DNA of 64,000 nt from Alicyclobacillus mali NBRC 102425 (lineage in GTDB: Bacteria > Bacillota > Bacilli > Alicyclobacillales > Alicyclobacillaceae), in NCBI RefSeq assembly GCF_001570745.1, contig NZ_BCSG01000014.1, forward strand, positions 1 to 64,000. Direction: 5' to 3'. Below are positions 1 to 15,175 of this stretch, in pieces (the first letter of the stretch is position 1; each line of letters begins with the position of its first letter). The translations under genes were made by a program, and so were the position numbers. The notes beneath the pieces were generated by a model. The model was given only the letters and a program-made list of their open reading frames with translations. It had not been told where the DNA came from and ran no database searches.

Positions 1-595
1 TCATGACATCAGATCGATCATATCGATTCTGAATGATCTGTGACATGGTGGACACGTATTCACTCTTATGCGATTTTGGCACGCCTTTTGGATGGCCTGA
101 GGTTCCAGACGTATAAAGCATGACGGCCGGATCGTCATCCTCGATCGGAACAGCGTCAAACGAAGGTGTTCCGTTGCGCACAAGTTCGCCCCACGTGACG
201 TCACCATCATCCGGGTCAAGACTTACATAAATAGGTTTTTCAAGAAGATTAATATATCTCAGAGCGTTCCTCGTGGCGCGCTCGAAACAGATGAGCTTCG
301 GTTCTACATCCAGAATGCAGCGTTCCAGATCTCCGGGTGCCATATGATAGTTGAGAGGCACGAACACGGCACCGAGCTTCTGCACGGCCCAGAAAAGTAT
401 CACGGTCTGTTGCCGATTTTTCATCAGGGCTATCACGCGATCTCGCCGCCGGACACCAAGCTTGTGCAGCGCGTGAGCGACGCGGTTCACCGCTGCATGC
501 AGATCACGGTAGCTCAGGGCGTGATCGCCCTCAATGAGCGCGATGGCCTGAGGCTCCCTCGCCGCCGCCATCTCAAACATGCGCGCCAGATTCAC
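1..595 (-). CDS. AMP-dependent acyl-CoA synthetase/ligase, N-terminal part (cut by window start)
   Basis: N-terminal 198 residues of an ANL-superfamily adenylate-forming enzyme; the rest lies outside the window. The AMP-binding P-loop YTSGTSG..PKG is visible at residues 161-171, preceded by the usual region seen in fatty-acid and aromatic-acid CoA ligases (for example FWAVQKLGAVFVPLNY near residue 68). The family activates a carboxylic acid to acyl-AMP and then acyl-CoA. The start is taken as GTG at 595, eight or nine bases after a GGAGG in the end of the upstream gene; only 15 bp separate the two genes, so this is the last visible gene of the seven-gene operon. Substrate cannot be read from the fragment. 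Inference: it activates the acid made by the upstream alcohol and aldehyde dehydrogenases, or the imported acid itself. Confidence 0.88.
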   Translation of the reverse strand, partial: MNLARMFEMAAAREPQAIALIEGDHALSYRDLHAAVNRVAHALHKLGVRRRDRVIALMKNRQQTVILFWAVQKLGAVFVPLNYHMAPGDLERCILDVEPKLICFERATRNALRYINLLEKPIYVSLDPDDGDVTWGELVRNGTPSFDAVPIEDDDPAVMLYTSGTSGHPKGVPKSHKSEYVSTMSQIIQNRYDRSDVM

Positions 596-610
596 CGCGC
601 ACCGCCTCCA

Positions 611-1753
611 TCACCAGAGAGACTCCACCAAACTCAGAACATCCCGCTCGCTCGCCGGGCGGGGATTGTGGCTCAACTGGACGCTCGACAGGGTTTGACG
701 CGCGATACTCCCCAACGCGTCCTTGGTCACTCCAACGTCGCGCAGCCTCGAGGGCAGCCCTATGGCGCGAGCAAGTCGTTCGACGATCTCGGCCGCATCA
801 CCACCTCCGATTCTCTCGCCTTCCATGAGAATGTCTGCCGCGCGACGATACTTTTCAACACACACCTGTGCGTTATATCGAATCACAGCTGGCAGGCAGA
901 TTCCGATCGCAACCCCGTGCGGCACATGCGCATGCCCCGATACTGCGGCCGCGATAGCGTGGGTCAGTCCAAGATACGCGTGATTGAACGCAATTCCTGC
1001 ATAGAGGCTTGCCTCCGCCATGGCCCGGCGCGCCCACGCATCCGTTCCGTCCACGACAGCCCGAACTAGGTTCGCCCCCACAAAGTCCATCGCCCGTTCC
1101 GCAAGCGCATCCGAAAAAGGCGTCGCTTGCCGCGATACGTACGCCTCCAAGGCGTGCGCCAACACGTCGATCCCACTCGCGGCAGTCACTTTAGGCGGGA
1201 CACTGTGAGTGAGCAGCGGATCCACCAGCGCCACATCCGCCGCGAGATACGGGCTTGTAACCGTGACCTTCACCTGATGCTCCCAGTCGGAGTACACGCC
1301 AAAGAAAGTCACCTCGCTACCAGTTCCAGCGGTGGTCGGAATGGCGCACAATCGCATGCGAAGCGGTCCCGGAATCATCTCCGCGCGGATCCCAGCGAAC
1401 CTGCGAAGGTCGCCTCCGAGCTCTGCCACAACACGAGCCCCCTTCGCGACGTCGATCGCGGACCCCCCGCCGACGGCCAACAACACTTCCACTCTTGCTT
1501 CGCAGCACAGGGAGGCCACGCGATGAACTGTCTCCACGCTTGGATCGGGCTCCACATCCGCGTAGACATACACATCATGACACGCCTCACGCGCCAAGGT
1601 CTCCACTTGGCTCGCGACACCAGACTGCATGAGGCCGGGATCCGTTACGACCATCGCCCGTGAAGCCCTCATCTCGCGCAGCACACGAGGCAATTGTTGG
1701 GTGACGCCCTCACCAAATGTCACGCGTGTTGGGATGTGAATTCCGTATGCCAT
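611..1753 (-). CDS. Iron-containing alcohol dehydrogenase family protein
   Basis: Group III (Fe-type) alcohol dehydrogenase of 380 residues, the normal family length. The NAD-binding GGGSAIDVAK is at residues 95-104 and TTAGTGSE at 140-147. Metal ligands are present: Asp196 and His200 in GIDVLAHALEAY, His265 in GLTHA and His279 in the VPHG motif. The family covers alcohol dehydrogenases, lactaldehyde reductases and maleylacetate reductases, so direction and substrate are open. It lies 18 bp after the aldehyde dehydrogenase and 15 bp before the acyl-CoA ligase, and is co-directional with both. Inference: it handles an alcohol/aldehyde step of the same pathway; a maleylacetate reductase role is the main alternative. 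Confidence 0.9.
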   Translation of the reverse strand: MAYGIHIPTRVTFGEGVTQQLPRVLREMRASRAMVVTDPGLMQSGVASQVETLAREACHDVYVYADVEPDPSVETVHRVASLCCEARVEVLLAVGGGSAIDVAKGARVVAELGGDLRRFAGIRAEMIPGPLRMRLCAIPTTAGTGSEVTFFGVYSDWEHQVKVTVTSPYLAADVALVDPLLTHSVPPKVTAASGIDVLAHALEAYVSRQATPFSDALAERAMDFVGANLVRAVVDGTDAWARRAMAEASLYAGIAFNHAYLGLTHAIAAAVSGHAHVPHGVAIGICLPAVIRYNAQVCVEKYRRAADILMEGERIGGGDAAEIVERLARAIGLPSRLRDVGVTKDALGSIARQTLSSVQLSHNPRPASERDVLSLVESLW

Positions 1754-1771
1754 AGGCTCATCTCCATTAGC

Positions 1772-3217
1772 TCACACGTCCAGCGTGAGGTGAATATGCT
1801 TCAATTCGGTGAACTCGTACAACCCCTCGATACCCCGAGAACGGCCGAGCCCACTCATCTTGTAGCCGCCGGACTCTGCCTCCGCGTAATTCCGGTTATA
1901 GCCGTTCAACCATACGGTCCCAGCTTGCAGATCACGGGCCACCCGGAAAGCCCGATCTAAATCCTTCGTCCAAATGCCTGCCACCAGCCCGTAGCGCGTG
2001 GCATTCGCAAGGCGAATCGCTTCCTCTTCCGATTCAAACTTCTCCACAACCAGCACAGGCCCGAAGATTTCCTCTTGCACCACCGAACAATCGACGGGTA
2101 CGTCCGCGATCACGGTTGGCTCTATAAAATGGCCGCAATGGTAAGGCGGCTGCGAGAGACGCCTCCCACCGGCGATGACGCGGCCTCGGCGACGCCCTTC
2201 CTCGATGAACGCAAGAATGGCCTTTAGTTGCGTTTCCGAAATCACAGGCCCCATGTCTGTCGATTCGTCCAGCGGCATGCCGACCCGAAGCGACTCCGCG
2301 TAAGACTTCGCAAGCCCCAATGCTTGCTCGTACACCGACGCCTCTACCAAAAGTCGGGATCCAGCCATACAGATTTGGCCGCTGGTCATAAAAACGGACC
2401 TGCATGCGGTGGACACAGAGCGCTCAAGATCGCAGTCAGCAAACAAGATGTTGGGGGATTTTCCCCCGAGCTCTAGAGCGACCTTCTTCACGTAACGGCT
2501 AGCCTTAGCCATGAGTTCTTGTCCGATTTCAGTGCTCCCGGTGAACGCGATCATATCGACATCGGGATGATCCACCAGAGCAGCACCCACGATGCTGCCC
2601 TTGCCCGTGACGAGTTGCAGAATGCCCGGCGGAAAGAGACCGAGATCCGCAGCAAGTTCGACCAAGGCTGCTGTGACTGCACCCGTGCGTTCCGCCGGTT
2701 TGATAATGGCGGCGTTTCCGGCAGCAAGGCAGGGCGCAAGATCGCGCAACAACAGGAGAACCGGCCAGTTCCAAGGCGTGATTACTCCCACAACACCGAC
2801 AGGTTCCCGCATCAAAAAGCCATATGCGTCGCGAGACGGTTGAAACGTTCGCCCGCATACATTGCGAGCCATCACGCTGTTGTATCGCAATGCGTCGACA
2901 GCACTCGCGATCTCAGCGCGAGCTTCGCGGATGGGCTTGCCGTTTTCGTGGGACAAGAGATGTGCCAGATTCTCCTGCTTGCTCTCGATGGCATTCGCCC
3001 ACGCAGCAAGGGCCCGTGATCGCGCGTGTGAGTTCATCGCCCAATCCGTAGCGTGGAAAGCGGAGCGAGCCGCTGCCACGGCCCGCTCCACGTCATCCTT
3101 CGTGGAGGACTGCGTCCTGGCGACAAGGTGGCCCGTCGCCGGGTCAGTCGAGTCACACGTCTCTCCTGAACTCGATAACTGCCAAGTGCCTGCAATGTAA
3201 TTCTGATAGGTCTTCAT
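1772..3217 (-). CDS. NAD(P)-dependent aldehyde dehydrogenase
   Basis: Classical aldehyde dehydrogenase of 481 residues that oxidises an aldehyde to a carboxylic acid. Catalytic Cys283 lies in TSGQICMAG, the general-base Glu249 in ELGGKSP, and the substrate-stabilising Asn150 in TPWNWP; the glycine-rich FTGSTEIG follows at about 225-232. The ATG start has a GGAGGATT Shine-Dalgarno five bases upstream. It is 27 bp downstream of the MFS carrier gene and 18 bp upstream of the iron alcohol dehydrogenase, so it sits mid-operon. The overall motifs resemble benzaldehyde, betaine-aldehyde and vanillin dehydrogenases, but the substrate cannot be fixed. It would turn an aldehyde from the UbiD/R2lox steps into an acid for the CoA ligase (inference). 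Confidence 0.93.
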   Translation of the reverse strand: MKTYQNYIAGTWQLSSSGETCDSTDPATGHLVARTQSSTKDDVERAVAAARSAFHATDWAMNSHARSRALAAWANAIESKQENLAHLLSHENGKPIREARAEIASAVDALRYNSVMARNVCGRTFQPSRDAYGFLMREPVGVVGVITPWNWPVLLLLRDLAPCLAAGNAAIIKPAERTGAVTAALVELAADLGLFPPGILQLVTGKGSIVGAALVDHPDVDMIAFTGSTEIGQELMAKASRYVKKVALELGGKSPNILFADCDLERSVSTACRSVFMTSGQICMAGSRLLVEASVYEQALGLAKSYAESLRVGMPLDESTDMGPVISETQLKAILAFIEEGRRRGRVIAGGRRLSQPPYHCGHFIEPTVIADVPVDCSVVQEEIFGPVLVVEKFESEEEAIRLANATRYGLVAGIWTKDLDRAFRVARDLQAGTVWLNGYNRNYAEAESGGYKMSGLGRSRGIEGLYEFTELKHIHLTLDV

Positions 3218-3244
3218 TGGGTAATCCTCCTGCCAGGCGTCAAC

Positions 3245-4558
3245 TTACTCGAAGTGCCCCCGAGTCTCCGGAATGACCAGTGCGCCGATTACGTACAAGG
3301 CCAGCGCCGCCATGAGAAAAATCGTGAGTGCTGTCGGGATGTTGGAGGTGGTACCCGCTGCTAACGACACAAAAGTTGGAAGCATTCCGCCTACGGCAAA
3401 GCCCATATTCCACGACAATCCAGTACCCGTCGAGCGCACTTTTGTGGGAAAGCGCTCGTTCAAGAACGCCACGATGGGCGCATACGCTGCATTGCCGAGG
3501 AAGACCAAGATCAGTGCATACGCTATCAATGCTCCCGGAGCATGTGTGGTTGCCATTCCATGGTAAAGGAATGGAACAGCGACAAGCGCGATCACGCCGG
3601 TTGTCAAAAACACGGGTTTTCTCCCGACGAGTTCGCTGAGATGTCCCACCAATACAGCCGCAAGGATGACGACGAGACTGGCGGCAATTAACGCCATGGA
3701 GGCGGTGGCATGCGGAGGTTTGTTGACGACTTTGAAGAACGTAGGAAGGTAACCAGACGTGAGATAATAACCGCTTCCTCCGCCAACCGTGATCATTAGG
3801 TTGACAAACAGGATCCGCCGGTACGTCGTGAAGACCGAGCGAACGGGCGCTTTCGGGGCCTCCTGAGCTTCCACGTGTTTTGCCTGCTGCCAAAGCGGAG
3901 ACTCTTCGAGCGAGTTGAACACAAACACCCCGAGGAGGCCGCTCAGGATACCGGAGAAAAACATGCATCTCCATCCCCAGACGTCAAATGCCGGCCCCGG
4001 AAACACGGAGGACCAAATCGCATAAACAATGGAGGCGATGAGTGAGCCTATCCCCGCTCCTCCGCCGCCGATGAGTCCTGACACCAGCCCACGCCATTTC
4101 GGCGACACCGACTCGGTTCCAATGGTGTGCGTGGACGCGACGACGCCTCCAACGCAGATCCCTTGGCAGAGGCGGAGGAATAGGAATAGAATCGGCGCCA
4201 AGGCTCCTATCTGGTGAACCGTAGGGAGTGCTCCAAAGAGCGCTGTTAGAATACCCACGCCGACCACCGCCGTGATCATCGCGCGCTTGCGGCCGAACCG
4301 GTCGGCAAACGATCCGAATAGCCCACTTCCGAGCGGCCGCATTAACAGGGTGACGGCGAAGGAGCCGTAGACAGACGCGAGCGAAAGCGTGGGATTGCTG
4401 GATGGGAAGAACAGCTTCCCGACGTCTGGCGCAACATATAAGAGGACAAACAGGTCGAACAAGTCCAGAGACCAGCCGAGAAGGGACGCAATGGTCGCCG
4501 TCACCACTTGCTTTCGTGTTGGTTGAACGGCGTATGGGCTAGCCGTCGAAATGGACAT
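3245..4558 (-). CDS. MFS transporter, aromatic acid/metabolite:H+ symporter type
   Basis: Twelve-helix major facilitator protein of 437 residues. The cytoplasmic loop motif appears as GSFADRFGRKRA after helix 2, and a second copy, GHLSELVGRKP, in the C-terminal half. The PExRG-type end (IPETRGHFE) and overall pattern are those of the metabolite:H+ symporter (MHS) and aromatic acid:H+ symporter branches, which import benzoates, shikimate or dicarboxylates. The ATG start follows GAGGAGG by six bases. It is 25 bp downstream of the R2lox gene and 27 bp upstream of the aldehyde dehydrogenase. Inference: it imports the carboxylic acid that UbiD decarboxylates. Confidence 0.9.
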   Translation of the reverse strand: MSISTASPYAVQPTRKQVVTATIASLLGWSLDLFDLFVLLYVAPDVGKLFFPSSNPTLSLASVYGSFAVTLLMRPLGSGLFGSFADRFGRKRAMITAVVGVGILTALFGALPTVHQIGALAPILFLFLRLCQGICVGGVVASTHTIGTESVSPKWRGLVSGLIGGGGAGIGSLIASIVYAIWSSVFPGPAFDVWGWRCMFFSGILSGLLGVFVFNSLEESPLWQQAKHVEAQEAPKAPVRSVFTTYRRILFVNLMITVGGGSGYYLTSGYLPTFFKVVNKPPHATASMALIAASLVVILAAVLVGHLSELVGRKPVFLTTGVIALVAVPFLYHGMATTHAPGALIAYALILVFLGNAAYAPIVAFLNERFPTKVRSTGTGLSWNMGFAVGGMLPTFVSLAAGTTSNIPTALTIFLMAALALYVIGALVIPETRGHFE

Positions 4559-4583
4559 TCAAATCCTCCTCATCGTGAAATTC

Positions 4584-5447
4584 CTACTCCAACGCTCCTT
4601 GCCAGTGTGTACCGAATATGTCGCGCATGCGCCGTTCATACATTTCCATCAGTCGCTCAATGCCTCGCTCCTCCACCGGTGGGTCATAACAGACCCCGTC
4701 CACCTCGATGGGCTGGCCGTACCTCGAACGTATGAACGGCAAATACGCCTGATAGATATCGCGGATTCTCGCCGCGAGCACCGCATCCCGCTCGGCGTAA
4801 TGGCGTAGAACCCGCATGCCGAACCCCACGTGTCGACCTTCGTCGCGCTGAATGTTTCGAAAGCCCTGGGAGAGTCCGGGAAAGAGACCGTGCTTACCAA
4901 ATACGTGCACAAAGATGTGGTAGCCCGCGTTCGCTTGGACACCTTCGATGATGCCTTGATAGTGCGTAAACGCTTCCACCAGACGCGTGGCTCTCTCTCC
5001 TTCTGGGGCTTCCAGGCTGGCAAGCAATTGTCGCGAGCGTTCATACAATGAGTCGTGTACGGGGTTCGCGAGTCTGCGTTTTGGACTGGAGACCCCGAAA
5101 ACTTCTTCGAAGTACCGGGAGAAGAAATCTGTGTGCTTAAACTCTTCAACCAGTTGTGTGCTCAAATACGCTTGCTGCCAGGTTGAAGACACGGACATAA
5201 TCCAAGGACAGAAGAGCCGAGCCACATTCTCCTCGGCGTGATAGAAGGCCCCGCAGAAAGACTCCAAATAGGCGCGCATCCCTGGGCTCAGGCGCTGATA
5301 GTCCAATTTGTCCTGAGACAGATCGATTTTTGAAGGGTCCCAAGTTCCAAAAGCAACCGCCTTTCGCCAGAGTCTGCGAGCCGCCTCATCCAGTGAATCC
5401 TCTGGATGGCCAAGATCGACATCTTCGACATCCATCATGTTGCTCAC
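4584..5447 (-). CDS. R2-like ligand-binding oxidase (R2lox), Mn/Fe family
   Basis: 287-residue ferritin-like protein of the R2lox group, related to the ribonucleotide reductase R2 subunit but not acting on nucleotides. All six metal ligands of the Geobacillus kaustophilus R2lox pattern can be placed: Glu72 (in EENV), Glu102 and His105 (EFKH), Glu168 (YQGIIE), Glu203 and His206 (DEGRH). The residues that form the Tyr-Val ether cross-link are also present, Val75 and Tyr163, with the exact E-x-x-V and Y-x4-E spacing. Members assemble a Mn/Fe cofactor, bind a long-chain ligand and activate O2; the physiological reaction is unknown. The start is GTG 5447, which overlaps the ubiD stop (GTGA) and follows GAGGAAGG. 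Upstream in-frame Met codons lie inside ubiD and are rejected. Its position between ubiD and an acid carrier is unusual. Confidence 0.92.
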   Translation of the reverse strand: MSNMMDVEDVDLGHPEDSLDEAARRLWRKAVAFGTWDPSKIDLSQDKLDYQRLSPGMRAYLESFCGAFYHAEENVARLFCPWIMSVSSTWQQAYLSTQLVEEFKHTDFFSRYFEEVFGVSSPKRRLANPVHDSLYERSRQLLASLEAPEGERATRLVEAFTHYQGIIEGVQANAGYHIFVHVFGKHGLFPGLSQGFRNIQRDEGRHVGFGMRVLRHYAERDAVLAARIRDIYQAYLPFIRSRYGQPIEVDGVCYDPPVEERGIERLMEMYERRMRDIFGTHWQGALE

Positions 5448-6817
5448 TCGCCTTCCTCGAACGAATTCTTCAGCCCGTATCGGCTCCAATCCATCTCTGC
5501 GAATCCCGGAATCGCGATACGTCGAAAACGAAACGAATCCGCGTTCAAGGGTACCGTGCAGTCGAGCCCCATCTTGCTGCCGACACCATCGTCCGTCGAC
5601 GGATCGAGCTTGGACCCCTGGCTGTTTGACACCAGGACCAGGTCCCGATCCGCTTGAAACCGGGTGGCGATCGCCCACTCCACCTCCTCGGGGTTGTAGA
5701 TATCCACGTCCTGGTCCACCACCACCACGTGCTTGATGTCAAAGCTGTTGGCCAGCGCCGCGAGGATCGCGTTTTTACCTTGACCTTCCTCTGTCTTGCG
5801 AATGGAAATCACCGCGTGGTATCGACAGGATCCCCCGGGCGTCATGTGAACCGCACGAACTGTGGGAACCAGTTGGCGCACGGTCTCAAACAAACTGGCC
5901 TCCCGAGGAATGCCGCCAAGCAAGAGATGCTCGTATCCCGCCGGAACAATTGTGTGATACACCGGATTTTCGCGCATCAACACCCCCGTCACTTCAATCA
6001 CGTGCTTGTCGGACCGCGGTCCGTAATAGCGAGGGAATTCGCCGAACGGACCCTCGGGCTCCCGAACATCCGGCAGAATACGTCCTTCGATGACGATCTC
6101 TGCTTCCGCTGGCACATCGACATCGACAGTCCGGCAGCGGACGACCGGAAGCGGTTCGCCGCGCAGGGCACTCGCAATCTCGAGTTCATCGACACCGAAC
6201 GGAGTACTGGCCTGGGAAGCAAGGAGAGTCGCAGGATCGACGCCGATGACCACAGCGCATTCGAGTGGCCTGCCGGCCGCCTCGGCTTGGCGAAACAGGT
6301 GAAGCGTGTGACGGGGAAGAAGCAGCACCCCCATCCTGTTCGGCCCGGTCACCTGCAAGCGATGAATCGCCACGTTCTGCTTTCGGGTGGATGGATCACG
6401 AACGATGACAAGTCCCGCGGTGATATACGGCCCCGCGTCGTGTTCGTGATGCGTCGGAATCGGAAGCGTTTTCAAGAGGTCGATCTCGTCCACTTGAACC
6501 TGATGGTACACAGGCGCCTCCGTTTCCATGACCCGCACCACCGGCACGGGTTGCTCGCATGCCTCCCGAAACTTGTGGACGAGATCAACCTGCCCACATC
6601 CGAGCGCCTCTGCAATCCAACGTCTGTGCGACACAAGTCCGCTGGCGACCGGCACGGGGGCCCCGTCCGTCCGGTGAAACAGGACAGCCTTCTGCCCATC
6701 GACCCGCTTGGCAATGGCTGCGACTTCATACCGCAAGCTCACTTCAACCTCAACATCCAGTAACCGGTCCGTGTTCCGCAAGTGTTGTAGCCAAGCCCGA
6801 AACGAAAGAAACGCCAC
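5444..6817 (-). CDS. ubiD: UbiD-family prenylated-FMN-dependent decarboxylase
   Basis: UbiD-type (de)carboxylase that removes CO2 from an unsaturated or aromatic acid using prenylated FMN made by UbiX. The prFMN/metal-binding region reads NVAIHRLQVTGPNRMGVLLLP, and the acidic part of the R-E-E active site lies in EPEGPFGEFPRYYG. From the GTG at 6817 it has 457 residues, within the family range (about 450-500). I prefer this GTG over the ATG at 6865 because an AGGGGGG Shine-Dalgarno sits nine bases before it and the extra 16 residues look non-conserved. Its stop overlaps the start of R2lox. The family includes ferulic/cinnamic decarboxylases, 4-hydroxybenzoate and protocatechuate decarboxylases and UbiD itself; no other ubiquinone genes are near, so a catabolic role is more likely. 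Confidence 0.93.
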   Translation of the reverse strand: MAFLSFRAWLQHLRNTDRLLDVEVEVSLRYEVAAIAKRVDGQKAVLFHRTDGAPVPVASGLVSHRRWIAEALGCGQVDLVHKFREACEQPVPVVRVMETEAPVYHQVQVDEIDLLKTLPIPTHHEHDAGPYITAGLVIVRDPSTRKQNVAIHRLQVTGPNRMGVLLLPRHTLHLFRQAEAAGRPLECAVVIGVDPATLLASQASTPFGVDELEIASALRGEPLPVVRCRTVDVDVPAEAEIVIEGRILPDVREPEGPFGEFPRYYGPRSDKHVIEVTGVLMRENPVYHTIVPAGYEHLLLGGIPREASLFETVRQLVPTVRAVHMTPGGSCRYHAVISIRKTEEGQGKNAILAALANSFDIKHVVVVDQDVDIYNPEEVEWAIATRFQADRDLVLVSNSQGSKLDPSTDDGVGSKMGLDCTVPLNADSFRFRRIAIPGFAEMDWSRYGLKNSFEEGE

Positions 6818-6833
6818 GGCATTCGCCCCCCTG

Positions 6834-6853
6834 ACACGCCGATTGCGGCGTGT
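6834..6853 (-). other. Perfect hairpin in the ubiX-ubiD intercistronic leader
   Basis: Perfect 8-bp stem (ACACGCCG / CGGCGTGT) with a 4-base loop, ending about ten bases before the Shine-Dalgarno of ubiD. No U-run follows, so it is not a terminator. It may stabilise the downstream mRNA or set ubiD translation relative to ubiX. If the ATG at 6865 were the true ubiD start, the hairpin would be inside the coding region. Confidence 0.45.
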
Positions 6854-6938
6854 GATATGGATCATAGACGGAATTAATCATCATGTGAATCATCCATTGA
6901 TAACTCGTAAATAAAGTGAATTTTCCTCAAGCAAATCT

Positions 6939-7532
6939 TCATAGCAGGGGTGACTCGTCGGCAGCGTCCCGTTGTGAGGATGGCTCGCCCCATCGCGGAA
7001 CTGGCATCGAGAGACCAAATTGATCGAGGATACGCCCTACGATGTGGTCGATCACGTCATCCAACGTGCGCGGGCGATGATAAAATCCCAACACAGGAGG
7101 AAAGATTACTGCGCCGGCTCGCGCGAGCGCCTGCATGTTTTCCAAGTGAAGCTCGTGAAGCGGTGCCTCGCGAACCACGAGCACCAGAGGCCGCCGTTCT
7201 TTCAACGTGACATCGGCGGCTCGAACGATCAGGTTGTCGCTCAGCCCCATGCGAATGGCGGCCATGGTCTTCATGCTGCAGGGCACGATAACCATTCCGT
7301 CCGTTCGATACGAGCCACTTGCGACGGAGGCGGCTAAGTTATCCAATCGATGGACTGTCGCCGCGAGCCGATGAAGGTCTGGCAACGAAAGTTGCGTTTC
7401 AAGCTTCAACGTCGTTTCTGCCCACCGCGAGCAAATCAGATGCGTCTCCACGCCGAGATCGCGAAGAGCCTGAAGTGTACGGACCGCAAGCGGCGCCCCT
7501 GTGGCACCCGTCATACCGACCACGATACGCAT
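6939..7532 (-). CDS. ubiX: UbiX-family flavin prenyltransferase
   Basis: 197-residue flavin prenyltransferase that joins dimethylallyl phosphate to FMN, making the prFMN cofactor used by UbiD. Motifs: the N-terminal GMTGATGAPLAV flavin loop, SRWAETTLKLE, the IVPCSMKTMAAIRMGLSDNLIVRAADV core, and the substrate-binding REAPLHELHLENM. The start is the ATG at 7532 (MRIVVGMTGA), the canonical UbiX N-terminus; an in-frame start nine codons upstream is possible but lacks support. It is the first gene of the operon and precedes ubiD by about 120 bp, as in many catabolic ubiX-ubiD pairs. Confidence 0.94.
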   Translation of the reverse strand: MRIVVGMTGATGAPLAVRTLQALRDLGVETHLICSRWAETTLKLETQLSLPDLHRLAATVHRLDNLAASVASGSYRTDGMVIVPCSMKTMAAIRMGLSDNLIVRAADVTLKERRPLVLVVREAPLHELHLENMQALARAGAVIFPPVLGFYHRPRTLDDVIDHIVGRILDQFGLSMPVPRWGEPSSQRDAADESPLL

Positions 7533-7571
7533 GGTAAACCGTCTCCTGAGTCGTCTCACCGAGTAGACCTG

Positions 7572-7599
7572 AGTATACCGAAGGACGCGGTCTGTCAGT
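7572..7599 (-). promoter_or_regulatory. Probable promoter of the ubiX operon
   Basis: Reading the minus strand, TATACT at 7577-7572 is a good -10 hexamer. ACTGAC or CTGACA at about 7599-7593 gives a 15-16 base spacing to a weak -35. It lies 40 bases upstream of the ubiX start and is the only convincing promoter seen for the seven genes. Confidence 0.5.
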
Positions 7600-7612
7600 T
7601 TTCAAAACGGAC
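7594..7612. promoter_or_regulatory. Imperfect palindrome overlapping the ubiX -35 (candidate operator)
   Basis: GTCAGTTTTCAAAACGGAC is a 19-base inverted repeat with one mismatch per arm and a central GTTTTCAAAAC. It overlaps the -35 region of the ubiX promoter, a usual place for a repressor or substrate-responsive activator. No regulator gene is visible next to it, so the cognate protein is unknown. Confidence 0.45.
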
Positions 7613-7752
7613 TCGACCCAATTTTGAGATTTTGCCGCTCGAACGACGTCTGCTTCTTCCGACCTCGGATTCACAGTGCGGTACCCCCGGCATCGACCGC
7701 GACGACACAGCGACTCAGGGCATACGGTGCGATTAGGTTGGGGGGTGAGACC

Positions 7753-8103
7753 ATGTGTACAAGAGCTGAATGCGAGCGCCTCGTAGGGCGCTGGGTCACG
7801 TTTCGCACCCCATACGGACAGCATCAGGGGCTGATCGAGCGGGTGACAGCCGACGGCCGTGTGATTGTGTTGTCGCCCCGCTCCCAGGCCGTGCCGTCCC
7901 TCATTCTCGCCAGTGGCGATCCGGCAGATCTCGATCCCGCTCTCGCATACGGAGGATTTGGCGCAGGTCCCATGGGTGGCCCAGGCTATGGCGCTGCCCC
8001 TTACGGCGCCCCAGGCATGGGATACGGTTATGGAGGCGCGTGGGTGCGCTGGGCCGTGCCGTTTCTCATCATCTACGCGCTCTTCGGGCTCTTCTTCTGG
8101 TAA
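7753..8103 (+). CDS. Small glycine-rich protein with C-terminal membrane segment, unknown function
   Basis: 116 residues, not assigned to a family. Residues 1-55 look like a small compact domain (Cys2, Cys7, then ERLVGRWVTFRTPYG and a beta-rich stretch, GLIERVTADGRVIVLS). Residues about 65-95 are a flexible Gly/Pro/Tyr-rich linker, and the last 20 residues form one hydrophobic helix ending in FGLFFW. The start ATG follows GGGGGTGAG by four bases; a longer upstream reading has no RBS. The tail and linker suggest a membrane- or surface-associated protein, possibly of the spore or envelope (inference). Confidence 0.75.
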   Translation: MCTRAECERLVGRWVTFRTPYGQHQGLIERVTADGRVIVLSPRSQAVPSLILASGDPADLDPALAYGGFGAGPMGGPGYGAAPYGAPGMGYGYGGAWVRWAVPFLIIYALFGLFFW

Positions 8104-8116
8104 TCGGAAAAGAAAG

Positions 8117-8149
8117 GCGCGGGAACCCCGACACCCGGGTGTCCCGCGC
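8117..8149. terminator. Hairpin between convergent genes
   Basis: 8-bp perfect stem GCGCGGGA / TCCCGCGC with a GC-rich loop, placed between the ends of the glycine-rich protein gene and the Clp ATPase gene. The T-tract on either side is weak, so terminator strength is uncertain. Confidence 0.55.
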
Positions 8150-8179
8150 TCTTCGTTCATGCTGGTTTTGATACGTCAT

Positions 8180-10213
8180 TCATGCTGACGGCGCCGTCTC
8201 AAGTGCCCGCGCCACCAACGCATCTCCTTCGACATCCAAGCGCACGCTGCGCACCTCTTCGTCGATCAACTGGTCCGCGATGGGGTCTTCGACGTACGTC
8301 TGGATGGTGCGGCGGAGCGGCCGCGCGCCGAAGGCCGGATGATAACCGCGCGCCGCCAACCAGGGCACGGCCTCCTCGCTCCACGAAAGCGTCACCCCGC
8401 GCGCCGCCAGAAGCTCGCGCACCTCTGCGAGCATCAGCTCGACGATTCGCTGCACCTCCGCCTGCCCCAGGGCACGGAACCGGACAATGGCGTCAAACCG
8501 GTTGAGAAACTCCGGCTTGAAGTAGGCCGACAGATCGCCGAGATCGACATCGGCGCGCACTTCCTCTTCGGGCGCTATTGCAAAGCCTACATGGCTCTTC
8601 CGCTCCACCTCGCCTGCATTCGACGTCATGATGATGAGCGTGTCCTTGAAGCTCACGGTGCGCCCTTGGCTGTCGGTCAAGCGCCCATCCTCCATGATCT
8701 GGAGGAAGATGTGCTGCACATCCGGGTGCGCCTTTTCGATCTCGTCCACCAAAATGAGACTGTACGGGTGGCGACGAACCTGCTCCGTCAACTGGCCCGC
8801 CTGCTCGTAGCCGACGTACCCGGGCGGCGCGCCGATGAGCTTCGACACCGAATGCTTCTCCATGTACTCGCTCATGTCGAGCCGGATCATCGCGTCCTTC
8901 GATCCGAAGAGAAGTTCCGCGAGCCTCCGGGCCATCTCGGTCTTCCCGACGCCCGTGGGACCGACGAAGAGGAAGCTGCCAATGGGCCGGTCGCCCCTGC
9001 GCAACCCCACGCGGCTGCGGCGAATGGCGCGCGCGACTTGGCGAACGGCCTCGTCCTGGCCGATCACGACGGCGGCGAGATCGGCCTCCAGGTTCTTGAG
9101 CTTGGCCTGCTCATCGGCCTGCATCCGCGTCACCGGGATGCCCGTCTTGGCCTCGACAATGGCCGCAATCTGCTCCTCGTCGACGACGGGCACATCCGGT
9201 GCACCTGCCGCACGAGCCAGTTCCGAGCGTAGCTTCTCCTCTTCAGCCTTCAACGCGGCCGCGCGCTCGTACGCCTCCTGGCGAATGGCCATCTCCTTTT
9301 CCCTCGCGATGGCGGCGAGGCGCTCTTCAATGCTCGCGCGATCTCCGCCGTACTGCAGGTTGGCCTTCGATCCGGCCTCATCCATCAGGTCGATGGCCTT
9401 GTCGGGAAGGAAGCGATCGCCAATATAGCGGTGAGACAGCGTCACGCACGCGCGAATGGCAGCATCCGTGTAGCGCACGCCGTGATATGCCTCGTACCGC
9501 GGCCGCAGCCCGTCGAGGATGCGCACGGCGTCCTCGACGGACGGCTCGTCCACCATCACGGGCTGGAACCTGCGCTCGAGCGCCGGATCCTTCTCGATTT
9601 GACGATATTCGTCGAGCGTCGTGGCCCCAATGACCTGTATATCCCCGCGCGCCAACGCAGGCTTGAGAATGTTCCCCGCGTCGAGCCCGCCCTGCGAGGC
9701 CCCGGCCCCGACCAACAGATGGATCTCGTCGATGAACGCAATGACGTCCTGGCGAGACTCGAGTTCGGCGATGAGCTGCTTCATGCGGCTCTCGAATTGG
9801 CCCCGAATCCCGGTGTCCGCCACCAGTGAAGCCACGTCGAGCGCATAAATCGTCTTGCCCAAAAGCTTCTTCGGCACCCTCCCTTCCGCGATGCGGAGGG
9901 CGATACCTTCGACGATAGCGGTCTTACCCACGCCCGGCTCACCGATGAGGACGGGGTTGTTCTTGTTGCGCCGATTCAGGATTTCCAGCGTGCGCTCGAT
10001 CTCGTCCTCGCGGCCGATCAGCGGATCGATCTTCCCCGCTTTCGCCATCTCGGTGAGATTGCGGCCGAACTGTTCGAGCACGCCGCCGTTTCTGGCACCG
10101 CCGGACAGCATGTGCGCGGGCTGCCCCATAGGTTGGCCGCTCATTTGACGAAACAAATCATCCAGCGGGAAATTGCCGCCCAAGATGAACTCTGGATTGA
10201 TGAATGGCATCAT
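8180..10213 (-). CDS. Hsp100/Clp ATPase, two AAA+ domains, ClpE/ClpC-like without N-domain
   Basis: ATP-dependent unfoldase of 677 residues. The first AAA+ module has Walker A GEPGVGKT at 91-98 and Walker B in VIAFIDEIH; the second has GPTGVGKT near 416-423. Between them is a short coiled region with a UVR-like stretch ([23 protein letters not shown]). A VGF tripeptide near 540 matches the ClpP-docking loop of ClpC/ClpE, so it probably feeds ClpP. Unlike ClpC it has no Clp-N repeats and unlike ClpE no N-terminal zinc finger; instead there are about 60 residues with a Gly/Met/Gln-rich stretch. Start is ATG 10213 or 10210 behind GGAGG; upstream in-frame Met codons lack an RBS and overlap the operator region. 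CtsR-like boxes upstream indicate heat-shock control. Confidence 0.93.
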
Positions 10214-10317
10214 GGCCACCTCCAGCCTTACGAACATCAGCATAGACGTCAGCGGCTGAAACGCGAATCCGCGTGGTCTGAAAGACCGCGCCCGCCCCAT
10301 CTCAGCCACCGATTGAT

Positions 10318-10334
10318 ATTGACTAACTTTGACC
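10318..10334 (-). promoter_or_regulatory. CtsR operator, copy 1
   Basis: On the minus strand the sequence is GGTCAAA-GTT-AGTCAAT, two CtsR heptads in tandem with the standard 3-base spacer (consensus A/GGTCAAA-NNN-A/GGTCAAA; only the last base differs). It lies in the 5' leader of the Clp ATPase gene. Confidence 0.8.
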
Positions 10335-10355
10335 TTTTGCAGCCTTTCGGTTGAC

Positions 10356-10372
10356 TTTGTCTTTCCTTGACC
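10356..10372 (-). promoter_or_regulatory. CtsR operator, copy 2 (degenerate)
   Basis: Minus-strand GGTCAAG-GAA-AGACAAA, the same tandem heptad layout with two substitutions, immediately downstream of the -10 hexamer. Two boxes on one side of the promoter are typical of clpE-type regulation. Confidence 0.65.
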
Positions 10373-10373
10373 A

Positions 10374-10401
10374 ATTATAACACGGTGTTCCCCATTTGCA
10401 A
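10374..10401 (-). promoter_or_regulatory. SigA-type promoter of the Clp ATPase gene
   Basis: Minus strand: -35 TTGCAA at 10401-10396, 16-base spacer, perfect -10 TATAAT at 10379-10374. Transcription would start inside CtsR copy 2, so CtsR binding would block it directly. Confidence 0.75.
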
Positions 10402-10471
10402 CACTTTTTTCGCGCGCACGGTGGTTCCAAGGCGAGAGATCGCGTTATCATAAGGATACTCCACAGGCGAG

Positions 10472-11071
10472 GTGAGCCCTTTGTTGGTGATTCTTCTGCT
10501 CGTCGTGATCGTCATTCTGCTGGTGCTTCTGTTCGCTCGCCGAAACCAGAGCGGCCCCGTGTACCGCCGCGGACCATTCCAGTCGTATCAGAGCGGCCCG
10601 TACCATCAGGGCCCGTTTCAGTCCAATTACGGACCGAATTACGGCCCAACGTACGACGTGACACCGCCGTACGGCGGATACCGCCCCGGGTTTGGCGGCG
10701 CCGGTTCGTTCCTCGGTGGCATGGCGGCCGGTGCGCTGTTGTCGTGGCTGTTCGAGCAAGGCCGGATCGACGCCATGCAGTACGATATGTTCCGCCAGAT
10801 GGAAGATCAGCAGATGATCGACGCGCTTCTGCAGCAGAACATCATTCAGCAGGACGAGATCGACCAGTTGCAACAGCAGATGATGATGGACCACGGCGAC
10901 TTGTACGATCCGAACGGAAACCCGGTGGATCCGGGACAGGCTCAGGACTGGGGATCGGCTGAGCCCTGGGACAACCAGGTGGATTTTCGCGACGACGGTT
11001 TTCAGAACGGGCCGTTTGATGACAATGGGCCGTTTGACGACCCGAACAATAACGGCGGGGGCTGGGTCTAA
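10472..11071 (+). CDS. Membrane-anchored Gly/Gln/Asp-rich protein, unknown function
   Basis: 199 residues starting at a GTG behind GGCGAGG. Residues 3-22 are one very hydrophobic helix (LLVILLLVVIVILLVLLFA) followed by RR, so the bulk should face the cytoplasm or cross to the outside. Residues 30-80 are rich in Gly, Tyr, Pro and Gln with repeated GPFQS/GPNYG units; 78-95 form a second weak hydrophobic glycine-rich stretch (GSFLGGMAAGALLSWLF); 100-135 are a Met/Gln/Asp-rich likely helix; the tail is acidic and repeats NGPFDD/NGPFDDP. No family recognised. It is divergent from the CtsR-controlled Clp gene, and like the protein on the other side of that gene it combines a membrane helix with a Gly-rich linker. 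Confidence 0.75.
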   Translation: MSPLLVILLLVVIVILLVLLFARRNQSGPVYRRGPFQSYQSGPYHQGPFQSNYGPNYGPTYDVTPPYGGYRPGFGGAGSFLGGMAAGALLSWLFEQGRIDAMQYDMFRQMEDQQMIDALLQQNIIQQDEIDQLQQQMMMDHGDLYDPNGNPVDPGQAQDWGSAEPWDNQVDFRDDGFQNGPFDDNGPFDDPNNNGGGWV

Positions 11072-11409: not shown

Positions 11410-12633
11410 TCAATCGCGGATGACCGGCTCGTAACCCGCCTGGCGCAGCGTGTCGCAGATCAGGCGGATATGGGCGTGATCGCGCGTCTCAAGGTCGATC
11501 TCGACCTCCGTCTGCCCGAGGTGGATGTGCGATCCCACGCGCTGATGGTGCACCGTGAGCACGTTCGCGCGGAGCCGGGCGACGATGTCGAGCAGGTCCC
11601 GCAGCGCGCCCACGCGGTCCTGAATCGTCACGGCGAGGCGCAGGTAACGCCCCGATTCCACAAGCCCGTGTTCGATGATCCGCGACAGCACCACCACGTC
11701 GACGTTGCCACCGGACAGCACGGCCACCACCTTGCCGAGCCCCGCCGGCACCTTTTTCCCCAGCACCGCCGCGATGGTGGTGGCCGCGGCGCCCTCCACC
11801 ACCAGCTTCGACCGCTCCATGAGCAAAATCATCGCGCGGGCGATCTCGTCCTCCTCCACGACGATCACGTCGTCGATGTACCGCTTCGCAGCCTCGAATG
11901 TCAGCGCACCTGGCCGTCTCACCGCGATGCCGTCCGCGATGGTCGGCTCGCCCGGCACGGTCTCGATGGCGCCGAGATCGAGCGCGTGGCGAAATGCCGG
12001 CACGGCCTTTGCCTGAACGCCGTAGATTTTCACGTCCGGGCGCAGCGATTTGAGCGCGATGGCGATCCCCGCCGCGAGACCGCCGCCCCCCATCGGCACG
12101 ATGACGGCGCTCACGTCAGGCAATTGCTCCGCGATCTCGAGACCAATGGTGCCCTGGCCAGAGATGATGTCGGGATCGTCAAACGCGTGAATGTAGGTAA
12201 GCCCCTCGCGCATGGCGATCTCGCTCGCGTGACCGTAGGCCGCGTCGTAGTCGTCGCCGTGGAGCACCACGCGCGCCCCGTACCGCTGCGTGGCCATAAT
12301 TTTGGCGAGGCTCGCCCCTTCCGGCATCACGATGGTGCATGGAACGCCGCGCCCTCGCGCCGCGTAGGCGACGCCCTGCGCGTGATTGCCCGCGGACGCA
12401 GCGACGACGCCAGCGAGGGTGCCCATCTCCGCCAGCGCCGTGATCTTGTTCAGCGCGCCGCGCAACTTGAACGATCCCGTCTTCTGCAAGTTCTCCAGTT
12501 TGAGATAGACATCGTTGTCGGCGAGACGCGAAAAAGTTTCCGAGTAGTCGAGCGGCGTATACAGCACGCTCCCTCGAATCCGCTCTCTCGCCCGTTCGAT
12601 GTCCTGCAAGGTGGGTAGCGACCGATCCTGCAA
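11410..12633 (-). CDS. tdcB: Threonine dehydratase (ammonia-lyase), PLP-dependent, with C-terminal ACT domain
   Basis: Converts L-threonine to 2-oxobutyrate and ammonia. The PLP lysine is Lys56 in GSFKLRGA; the phosphate-binding glycine loop is the PMGGGGLAAG stretch, and ASAGNHAQG is also present. The last ~75 residues, from about 335, form one ACT domain, making a ~400-residue enzyme of the catabolic/TdcB-like type rather than the longer IlvA type with two ACT modules. Start is TTG 12633, nine bases after GGGGAGG; a TTG six codons earlier would lie inside that RBS. It is the fourth gene after prpC-prpD-prpB: 2-oxobutyrate yields propionyl-CoA, the substrate of that cycle. Biosynthetic isoleucine use is the alternative. 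Confidence 0.92.
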   Translation of the reverse strand: MQDRSLPTLQDIERARERIRGSVLYTPLDYSETFSRLADNDVYLKLENLQKTGSFKLRGALNKITALAEMGTLAGVVAASAGNHAQGVAYAARGRGVPCTIVMPEGASLAKIMATQRYGARVVLHGDDYDAAYGHASEIAMREGLTYIHAFDDPDIISGQGTIGLEIAEQLPDVSAVIVPMGGGGLAAGIAIALKSLRPDVKIYGVQAKAVPAFRHALDLGAIETVPGEPTIADGIAVRRPGALTFEAAKRYIDDVIVVEEDEIARAMILLMERSKLVVEGAAATTIAAVLGKKVPAGLGKVVAVLSGGNVDVVVLSRIIEHGLVESGRYLRLAVTIQDRVGALRDLLDIVARLRANVLTVHHQRVGSHIHLGQTEVEIDLETRDHAHIRLICDTLRQAGYEPVIRD

Positions 12634-12655
12634 CCGCCTCTTCCTCCCCAAAGAA

Positions 12656-12676
12656 GGCGGGCCCGAAAGGCCCGCC
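12656..12676 (-). terminator. Hairpin plus short U-run between prpB and threonine dehydratase
   Basis: Perfect 8-bp stem GGCGGGCC / GGCCCGCC with 5-base loop, followed on the minus strand by TTCTTT. It lies six bases past the prpB stop and would act as a partial terminator, lowering read-through into the threonine dehydratase gene, or as an mRNA end stabiliser. Confidence 0.6.
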
Positions 12677-12682
12677 CCGTGC

Positions 12683-13606
12683 TCATCCGTCCGCGCGCTT
12701 CATCGAATCCTCGAGCACCGTCTTGGCGATGTGCTCGTCGAGCGCCTCATAATCGAAATAGCGAATGGTCTTGTACAGCTCCTCGCGCGACTGCATCTCC
12801 GACAGGAAGGACTTCTGCGTTCCCTCCCGCTGAATCGCTTCGAACACGCGCTCAATGGCCTTTGCCGCCACGCGGACGCTCGTCACGGGATAAATGACCA
12901 TGCGATAGCCCCACGACTCAAACTGGTCCGCGGTGTAGTAGGGCGTCTTGCCAAATTCCGTCATGTTCGCGAGTAGCGGAACAGGAACCCGCTCCGCAAC
13001 ATAGCGAAACTCCTCTTCCGTCGTCAAGGCCTCGGGGAATACGGCGTCCGCGCCTGCTGCCACATACCGATTCGCGCGCTCCACCAGCGCTTCGAGTCCT
13101 TCCACGCTTTTGGCGTCGGATCGCGCCACCACCACAAGCGTCGGCGCCACCGTCTTCAACATGCGGATCTTCTCCACCATCTCCGACGGCTCGACGAGTT
13201 TCTTGCCGTTCAAGTGCCCGCACTTTTTGGGCATCACCTGATCCTCAATCTGCACCGCCGCCACGCGCGCTTCGACCATCTCCTTCGCGGTGCGCGCCAC
13301 GTTGAGCACGCCGCCGTACCCTGTGTCGATGTCCACGAGCACCGGCAGGCCGGAAGCCCGGACGAGATCGGCCGCGCGCTCGGCCACTTCGTTCGAGTAG
13401 ACGATGCCGAGATCCGGCAGCCCACGACTCGCCGTGTACGCCGCGCCGGACAGGTAGATGGCTTCAAACCCCGCCTGCTTGGCGATCCGCGCCGTCAGCC
13501 CGTCGTGCGCGCCGGGAATTTTGAGAATCCGCCGTTCCCGCATGCGCTCCAGGAACCGCTTGGCCAGTTCCTCCTGGCTCGGTTGCTCTTCCACCAGCCA
13601 CGCCAA
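12683..13606 (-). CDS. prpB: Methylisocitrate lyase
   Basis: Isocitrate-lyase-superfamily enzyme of 307 residues that cleaves 2-methylisocitrate to pyruvate and succinate, the last step of the methylcitrate cycle. The catalytic Cys129 lies in MPKKCGH, the family signature, and the metal site in VDIDTGYG (92-98). The SGAAYTASRGLPDLG opening is typical of PrpB rather than isocitrate lyase. Start is TTG 13606, eight bases after GGGGAGG, itself next to the prpD stop (15-bp gap). An oxaloacetase or phosphonomutase assignment is unlikely given the prpC and prpD neighbours. Confidence 0.94.
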   Translation of the reverse strand: MAWLVEEQPSQEELAKRFLERMRERRILKIPGAHDGLTARIAKQAGFEAIYLSGAAYTASRGLPDLGIVYSNEVAERAADLVRASGLPVLVDIDTGYGGVLNVARTAKEMVEARVAAVQIEDQVMPKKCGHLNGKKLVEPSEMVEKIRMLKTVAPTLVVVARSDAKSVEGLEALVERANRYVAAGADAVFPEALTTEEEFRYVAERVPVPLLANMTEFGKTPYYTADQFESWGYRMVIYPVTSVRVAAKAIERVFEAIQREGTQKSFLSEMQSREELYKTIRYFDYEALDEHIAKTVLEDSMKRADG

Positions 13607-13621
13607 GGTTCACGCCTCCCC

Positions 13622-15067
13622 TCAGATGACAAACAGATCCATGAACTCGTCGACCGGCGTCTCGTGCAGCCGGTTTGCGTCCAGACACAGGTCGAGGATG
13701 CGCTCGGCGCGCTTCTCCGGAAAGCGCGTCAGCAGGTTCGCGCGGAACTTTTCAATGACCTTCGGCAGCCCTTCCGCGCGGCGGCGGCGATGGCCGATGG
13801 GATACTCCACTTCCACCTTGTCGGTGTGCGATCCGTCGCGGAAGAAGATCTGAACCGCGTTCGCGATGGAGCGCTTGTCCGGATCGAGGTACTCCTTGCT
13901 GTAGCGCGGATCCTCGACGACCTCCATCTTCTCCCGCAGCGCGTCGATGCGCGGGTCGCTCGCCGTCTCGTCCTCGTAGTGCTCCGCCCGCAGATCCCCG
14001 TAGATGAGCCCCACGGCGACCATGTATTGGATACAGTGATCCCGATCCGCCGGATTGTGAAGCGGCCCCTTCTTGTCGATGATCCGGATGGCGGACTCGT
14101 GCGTCGTGATGACGATGCGCTCGATCTCGTCGAGGCGGTCTTTCACGAGCGGATGCAACTGGAACGCGCACTCCACCGCCGTCTGCGCATGGAACTCGGC
14201 GGGGAAGGAGATCTTCAAAAGCACGTTCTCCATCACGTATGAGCCGAGCGGCCGCGCCAGCACAATGGGCTTGCCGCCCATGACGACGTCGTTGAAACCC
14301 CACTGCGGCGCGGTCAGCGCGCTCGGGTAGCCCATCTCGTCGCGCAGCGCCATGAACGCGAGCCACACGGCGCGGCTCGTCGCGTCGCCCGCCGCCCACG
14401 ACTTGCGGGATCCCGTGTTTGGCGCGTGGCGATACGTGCGGAGCGGCGCGTTGTCGATCCACGCGTTGGAGATGGCGTTCTGAATCTGCTCCCTTGAACC
14501 GCCGAGCATCGCCGTGGTGACGGCGGTCGAAGCCACTTTCACGAACAGGACGTGATCGAGCCCGCGGCGATTCAGGCTGTTCTCGAGCGCGAGCACGCCC
14601 TGAATCTCGTGCGCCTGCACCATCCGCTCGAGCAATTGGCGCACCGTCAACGGTTTTTGGCCTCGCCTGCGCGCCTCCCGGCTCAGGTAGTCCGCCACAG
14701 CCAAGATGCCGCCCAGGTTGTCCGACGGGTGGCCCCATTCCATGGCGAGCCACGTGTCGTTGTAGTCGAGCCAGCGGATCATCGCGCCGATGTTGAACGC
14801 GGCCTGGACCGGATCGAGCTCGTACTTCGTGCCTGGCACGCGTACGCCCCCCGGCATGGCGGCCCCAGGCACGTACGGCCCGATGTGCTTCGCGCATTCC
14901 GGGAAGGAGAGCGCGAGCAAACCCACCCCAAGGGTGTCCATGAGCACGTGGCGCGCGATGTGAAGCGCCTCGTCGCTCGCGACTTCCGGCTTCATCACGT
15001 AGTCCGTCATCTGCACCATCACGTCGTCAAACGGGCGACCGCCCTGGCGATCCACGGTTCCACTCAT
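13622..15067 (-). CDS. prpD: 2-Methylcitrate dehydratase (MmgE/PrpD family)
   Basis: Iron-sulphur-independent dehydratase of 481 residues that converts 2-methylcitrate to 2-methyl-cis-aconitate. PrpD features: [17 protein letters not shown] near the start, [26 protein letters not shown], and [28 protein letters not shown] in the middle. The start ATG at 15067 has CAGGAGGATT just before it; an in-frame Met six codons upstream would place that RBS inside the gene. It is 108 bp downstream of prpC and 15 bp upstream of prpB. No acnD or aconitase gene is nearby, so the hydration to methylisocitrate must rely on an aconitase elsewhere. Confidence 0.95.
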
Positions 15068-15175
15068 CGTCAATCCTCCTGACATTTCACCGCAGGTCTG
15101 AACACAGCAAAGTGCCGGGCGGCAGCGCCGCCCGCTGATACGTTCGACTATGGAAACGTCGGCTCCCCCGCCGAT

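Follow-up and report, generated by a model that had tools for sequence, protein, structure and literature searches.

The 64,000-nucleotide stretch of Alicyclobacillus mali NBRC 102425 DNA analysed here (the window, whose base 1 is the first base of contig NZ_BCSG01000014.1) opens with seven genes, all on the minus strand (1-7559), encoding a UbiX-type flavin prenyltransferase, a UbiD-family decarboxylase, an R2-like ligand-binding oxidase (R2lox), a major facilitator superfamily (MFS) transporter, an aldehyde dehydrogenase (ALDH), an iron-type alcohol dehydrogenase (Fe-ADH) and an acyl-CoA ligase. This operon very probably belongs to the furan pathway of 5-hydroxymethylfurfural (HMF) and furan-2,5-dicarboxylate (FDCA). 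The fuller proposal, that it represents the Bacilli version of the HMF/FDCA (hmf) pathway in which R2lox most likely serves as an upstream, O2-dependent furan side-chain oxidase or hydroxylase, stands in our judgement at about even chances. R2lox proteins have long been studied as models of Mn/Fe enzymes, though their physiological substrate is contested, and furan acids are toxic by-products of plant-sugar processing. Both the R2lox family and the hmf pathway were already known, the novelty lying in the link between R2lox and furans, in its breadth and in the reassignment of the operon to furans; among the listed matches in the open-licence literature no paper links R2lox to UbiD or to furans. 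Members of this R2lox subfamily are spread over at least 12 genera of Bacilli, in a conserved context that narrows their substrate question to a few commercially available furans. FDCA and HMF serve as chemicals for bioplastics and biofuels, and an extra O2-dependent furan oxidase in thermophilic Bacilli would, if real, be of practical use.

An HmfF-type UbiD and its association with R2lox

The UbiD protein (5444..6865, minus strand) matches the solved HmfF structures 6h6v and 6h6x, the former from Pelotomaculum, with 550 and 540 bits, the next family (AnInD) reaching 233 bits. The HmfF active-site stretch EHLLLGG..RE is intact, with the nearby Arg kept together with the His to which PMC7976604 ascribes furan specificity (numbered 297 there and 296 in chain 6h6v). 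The window protein is 55-56% identical to UbiD of proteobacterial hmf clusters and 65% identical to its counterpart on plasmid pHTA426, and the lower genes of the sister species are 37-57% identical to HmfABCDE of the Caballeronia and Dinoroseobacter hmf clusters. The case for an enzyme of HmfF type, with FDCA as predicted substrate and 2-furoate and CO2 as predicted products, is strong. Because the cluster together with these lower genes forms a full HMF/FDCA pathway, the UbiD product would be 2-furoate and not an alkene or a phenol. More distant UbiD homologues of Bacilli (42-47% identity; L116-L121 and others) are found without R2lox, some of these UbiD/UbiX loci adjoining amidohydrolase-, cyclase- and purine-permease-like genes; we take them as a second UbiD group, separate from HmfF.

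With the hmf pathways of Cupriavidus basilensis HMF14 and Pseudomonas umsongensis GO16 (PsfG/PsfA) the operon shares HmfF/UbiX, MFS, alcohol dehydrogenase (ADH), ALDH and ligase, and sister species also have HmfABCE. It departs from the Koopman-type pathway in several respects: HmfH has no match in the source genome, which carries Fe-ADH and ALDH instead, R2lox is added, and HmfABC is missing from the source genome, which has a nickel-pincer-type module in its place. GkR2loxII (GKP26, WP_011229500.1, pHTA426) belongs to the same R2lox subfamily (51.5% identity) and has the same neighbours (UbiX, ALDH, Fe-ADH, UbiD, MFS and ligase), followed on that plasmid by an HmfABCDE-type lower pathway with molybdenum hydroxylase, ligase and enoyl-CoA hydratase genes.

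The association of R2lox with this type of UbiD is widespread. An alignment scan of GTDB genomes retrieved 26 named loci of furan-type R2lox (a single-protein scan of genome contigs gave no match), which belong to Paenibacillus, Brevibacillus, Fictibacillus, Peribacillus, Domibacillus, Neobacillus, Aneurinibacillus, Ammoniphilus, Thermoflavimicrobium, Jeotgalibacillus, Halalkalibacterium and several Bacillus sp. The MFS-ALDH-FeADH-R2-UbiD operon recurs in more than 20 named species and is thus no peculiarity of this strain. The check that the earlier note on this DNA had suggested for all R2lox genes comes out positive for this subfamily: UbiD lies within five genes of R2lox in 23 of the 26 loci, and Fe-ADH, its closest conserved partner, is nearby in 25; where UbiD is elsewhere, HmfF is still present in the genome, and all four genomes to which R2lox loci were traced carry it. 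Among 399 Bacilli genomes, HmfF (at least 55% identity) was detected in 21 and this R2lox in 17, all 17 within those 21 (Fisher 1.8e-26, a value that ignores kinship, related genomes not being independent, though many genera and families are covered). The conserved context therefore upholds the role in a UbiD-containing catabolic pathway that the earlier note had suggested for R2lox, and not the substrate class (alkene, styrene or phenol-like) or the direction that it had proposed.

The R2lox subfamily and its predicted role

The R2lox gene (4584..5447, minus strand, GTG start) encodes a protein of the furan-cluster, or GkR2loxII-type, subfamily that scores 209.4 bits against NCBIfam NF006200, above the cut-off of 194, and has GkR2loxI (4hr0) as its best PDB sequence match. 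Its AlphaFold2 model (pLDDT 86) returned R2lox structures for all 34 top PDB matches in Foldseek. In the 288-residue translation of window 4587-5450, from whose residue numbers 1 has to be subtracted for the GTG start, the six metal ligands (E73, E103, H106, E169, E204 and H207) and the cross-link pair V76 and Y164 are present, as the earlier note had stated, and Y177 is the equivalent of the second cavity Tyr of GkR2loxI, Y175. The counterparts of the metal ligands, of the Val72/Tyr162 pair and of Tyr175 are identical in 37 out of 37 subfamily members, and the site reads as an intact one of Mn/Fe type.

In fold, metal ligands, Val/Tyr pair and cavity Tyr the window protein resembles GkR2loxI (4hr0), MtR2lox (3ee4) and SaR2loxII (7qbk); it differs from them by an identity of 30-36%, a branch of its own, a shorter C-terminus and at least ten subfamily-fixed changes. 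The furan-cluster proteins are monophyletic (100/100 support), and a long branch separates them from GkR2loxI and 22 canonical R2lox of Bacilli. The fixed changes with respect to canonical R2lox include Phe98->Gln, Leu170->Gln, Val161->His, Ala71->Asn and Met/Leu79->Trp (GkR2loxI numbering), the first four of which put polar residues in place of hydrophobic ones; where they line the cavity, such changes would favour a small polar ligand over a fatty acid. The source genome encodes a second, canonical R2lox (contig 21, 6244-7197; L040), which the tree places outside the furan-cluster branch.

A 2014 review considered the physiological substrate of R2lox unknown. The view of the earlier note that no physiological reaction had been assigned to these proteins has been overtaken by a 2024 claim of alkane hydroxylation for GkR2loxI (PMC10867098), in work that used lysates and in which the E202A/H205A ligand mutant lost little activity. 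The same study proposes that GkR2loxI, with its ADH, ALDH and ligase neighbours, hydroxylates alkyl chains, notes that genes for ADH, ALDH and a '4-chlorobenzoyl CoA ligase' adjoin GkR2loxII/GKP26 on pHTA426, and raises the question of aromatic hydrocarbons; it names no UbiD beside GKP26 and draws no link to furans.

In the pathway that we propose, the MFS protein would import furan acids, Fe-ADH would oxidise the hydroxymethyl group of 5-hydroxymethyl-2-furoate (HMFCA) to give 5-formyl-2-furoate (FFCA) and ALDH would turn the FFCA aldehyde into FDCA, two assignments held with moderate confidence. UbiX would make the prenylated flavin mononucleotide (prFMN), UbiD would convert FDCA into 2-furoate and the ligase would activate the latter to 2-furoyl-CoA. 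In P. umsongensis the conversion of HMFCA to FFCA needs the ADH PsfG and that of FFCA to FDCA the ALDH PsfA, followed by HmfF (PMC12064950). Since this published route from HMF to furoate requires only ADH, ALDH and HmfF, and since ADH/ALDH/UbiD clusters without R2lox exist, R2lox would contribute an additional, O2-dependent step. We put the chance that it acts upstream of UbiD at somewhat better than even, because in split clusters R2lox stays with ADH and UbiD with HmfABCDE: in G215 R2lox accompanies ALDH and Fe-ADH whereas UbiD adjoins CoxLGMS, ligase and enoyl-CoA hydratase genes about 18 kb off, and in G111 the FeADH-R2 pair and UbiD are on separate contigs. Upstream of UbiD, R2lox would act on the furan side chain as an O2-dependent oxidase or hydroxylase, giving an alcohol or aldehyde for Fe-ADH and ALDH. 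As an O2-activating Mn/Fe enzyme precedes ADH and ALDH, formation of the alcohol from a methyl group would be the simplest role, and the reaction that we favour would hydroxylate the methyl group of 5-methyl-2-furoate, giving HMFCA, or that of 5-methylfurfural, giving HMF. This choice is tentative and to our mind falls clearly short of an even chance, the exact substrate being weakly indicated.

Several observations weigh against such a role. The upper operon contains no reductase or ferredoxin gene, which a monooxygenase needs, and an oxidase would fit better; no report of Bacilli growing on 5-methylfuroate appeared in the open-licence literature searched; four of the 21 HmfF genomes (G007, G166, G147 and G247) are devoid of R2lox; and in G279 R2lox lies 2 Mb away from the HmfF cluster. 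In G007, the 279 bp between UbiD and MFS (L105:1872-2150) weakly match the R2lox C-terminus (E 0.057) and are perhaps the remnant of a lost R2lox.

No reductase would be demanded if R2lox acted as an alcohol oxidase in place of HmfH, using O2 to turn HMF or HMFCA into the aldehyde. A homologue of HmfH, a GMC oxidase present in the Caballeronia cluster, is absent in 20 of the 21 Bacilli HmfF genomes, the source genome included, no electron-transfer partner adjoins R2lox, and R2lox keeps its position beside Fe-ADH. However, an Fe-ADH is always available to take this step, the part played in Pseudomonas by PsfG, and G166 and G147 retain ADH, ALDH and UbiD without R2lox; we regard this function as rather unlikely. 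A slim chance is left to R2lox being an alkane or fatty-chain hydroxylase that travels with the cluster, in keeping with the alkane data on GkR2loxI (PMC10867098), or a servant of UbiD in prFMN oxidative maturation or O2 control, in keeping with the translational overlap of the two genes in the window; against both, furan-type R2lox is missing from every HmfF-free genome among the 399 sampled, the source genome holds its separate canonical R2lox, and UbiD clusters do without R2lox.

Two alternatives remain. Hydroxylation of furoate or furoyl-CoA on the furan ring, alongside or instead of HmfABC, would account for the five R2lox genomes without an HmfA orthologue (G000, G010, G014, G091 and G235), but all 12 HmfABC genomes carry R2lox as well and those lacking HmfABC have the nickel module, which makes it very improbable; as a replacement for HmfABC, R2lox was rejected on the former count. 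Least probable of all is the oxidation of the decarboxylated UbiD product advanced in the earlier note, for which the overlap of the R2lox start codon with the ubiD stop would speak: the UbiD is of HmfF type with 2-furoate as predicted product, in split clusters R2lox is found beside ADH/ALDH and UbiD beside the lower pathway, and the gene order is variable, R2 preceding UbiD in most Bacilli.

A nickel-pincer-type module in place of HmfABC

The acyl-CoA ligase gene (1..595, minus strand; PF00501) is truncated by the contig end, leaving the N-terminal 198 aa, which correspond to residues 1-198 of the G010 orthologue; the remainder, residues 197-505, is found elsewhere in the genome, on contig 55 (L138:10080-11018). 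Judged by synteny, the operon carries on at contig 55, and the joined order of ligase and contig 55 genes is seen on single contigs in G010 and G014. Contig 55 (168-11018) harbours a nickel-pincer-type module, with genes for a response regulator, LarE, LarB, LarC, a 4Fe-4S/BFD ferredoxin, a protein that we call X, a quinolinate phosphoribosyltransferase (QPRTase), a MoCF-domain protein, a second LarC-like protein and a lactate-permease-like protein. The module occurs also in L139, L140, L141, L144 and L106; relatives add 2-oxopentenoate hydratase, acetaldehyde dehydrogenase and 4-hydroxy-2-oxovalerate aldolase, and several of them a nickel-transporter-like protein, a number of these gene names, on contig 55 and in relatives, resting on our own reading of the sequences.

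With the G001 protein as query, the best HmfA match of the source genome is 33% identical, as against 65-76% in 11 of the 20 other HmfF genomes. HmfA is present in 12 and X in 8 of the 21 HmfF genomes, never both in the same one (Fisher 4e-5), and within the genus the HmfA-type genes of G001 occupy the position that the nickel module has in G010 and G014. The pattern of replacement of HmfABC by the nickel module is solid, and the nickel chemistry is our inference. Protein X (480 aa) gave no match in Pfam, NCBIfam or PDB profile searches. Six genomes with X (the source genome, G010, G014, G013, G091 and G166) hold LarB and LarE and no LarA-type (Lar_N, PF09861) protein, which makes X, the one candidate seen, the likely user of the nickel-pincer cofactor. 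Profile-profile comparison of X with LarA yields a probability of 1-3%, with 1 of 150 column shuffles reaching the score, and homology between the two is at most suggested.

Addition of two hydrogens to 2-furoate yields 2-hydroxypenta-2,4-dienoate, the substrate of 2-oxopentenoate hydratase. It is tempting to speculate that X and the two-cluster ferredoxin, with the cofactor made by LarB, LarC and LarE, would reduce 2-furoate or its CoA ester by two electrons to 2-hydroxypenta-2,4-dienoate, such a nickel-pincer ring opening replacing the molybdenum furoyl-CoA dehydrogenase and R2lox providing the O2-dependent first step. From 2-hydroxypenta-2,4-dienoate the route would then lead through hydratase, aldolase and acetaldehyde dehydrogenase to pyruvate and acetyl-CoA. 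We hold this combined scheme to be possible but doubtful. If it were true, the pathway would contain two previously unassigned metalloenzymes, R2lox and X, and a molybdenum-free opening of the furan ring in thermophilic Bacilli would be of practical interest.

Operon layout and neighbouring genes

All seven co-directional genes described in the earlier note, from ubiX to the ligase, are present, and its statement that gaps do not exceed 27 bp from ubiD on agrees with our coordinates: the genes for R2lox and UbiD share the 4 bases GTGA, in which the GTG start and the TGA stop overlap as it had likewise reported, and the downstream gaps are 25, 27, 18 and 15 bp. UbiX (6939..7532, minus strand; TIGR00421, 249 bits over a cut-off of 109; PF02441) can also be read from a GTG at 7559 (6939-7559), the ATG at 7532 being the likelier start because the G010 orthologue begins at that ATG, and the true start of UbiD is probably nearer 6820. 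The transporter (3245..4558, minus strand; PF07690) is a predicted HmfT-like acid/H+ symporter of the MFS, 60% identical to the one of the Caballeronia hmf cluster. ALDH (1772..3217, minus strand; PF00171, 528 bits) owes its predicted role to its position and to analogy with PsfA, and Fe-ADH (611..1753, minus strand; PF00465/PF25137) is predicted to take the PsfG/HmfH role in the step from HMFCA to FFCA. A promoter scan upstream of ubiX found none.

The G+C content of window 1-7560 is 57.9% compared with 64.5% in the remaining window, and the cluster may therefore have been acquired horizontally; Geobacillus kaustophilus HTA426 carries the corresponding cluster on a plasmid (pHTA426). Further along the window (11410-15085), genes for threonine ammonia-lyase and the methylcitrate-cycle prpB and prpD stand in a row and are unrelated to the R2lox operon.
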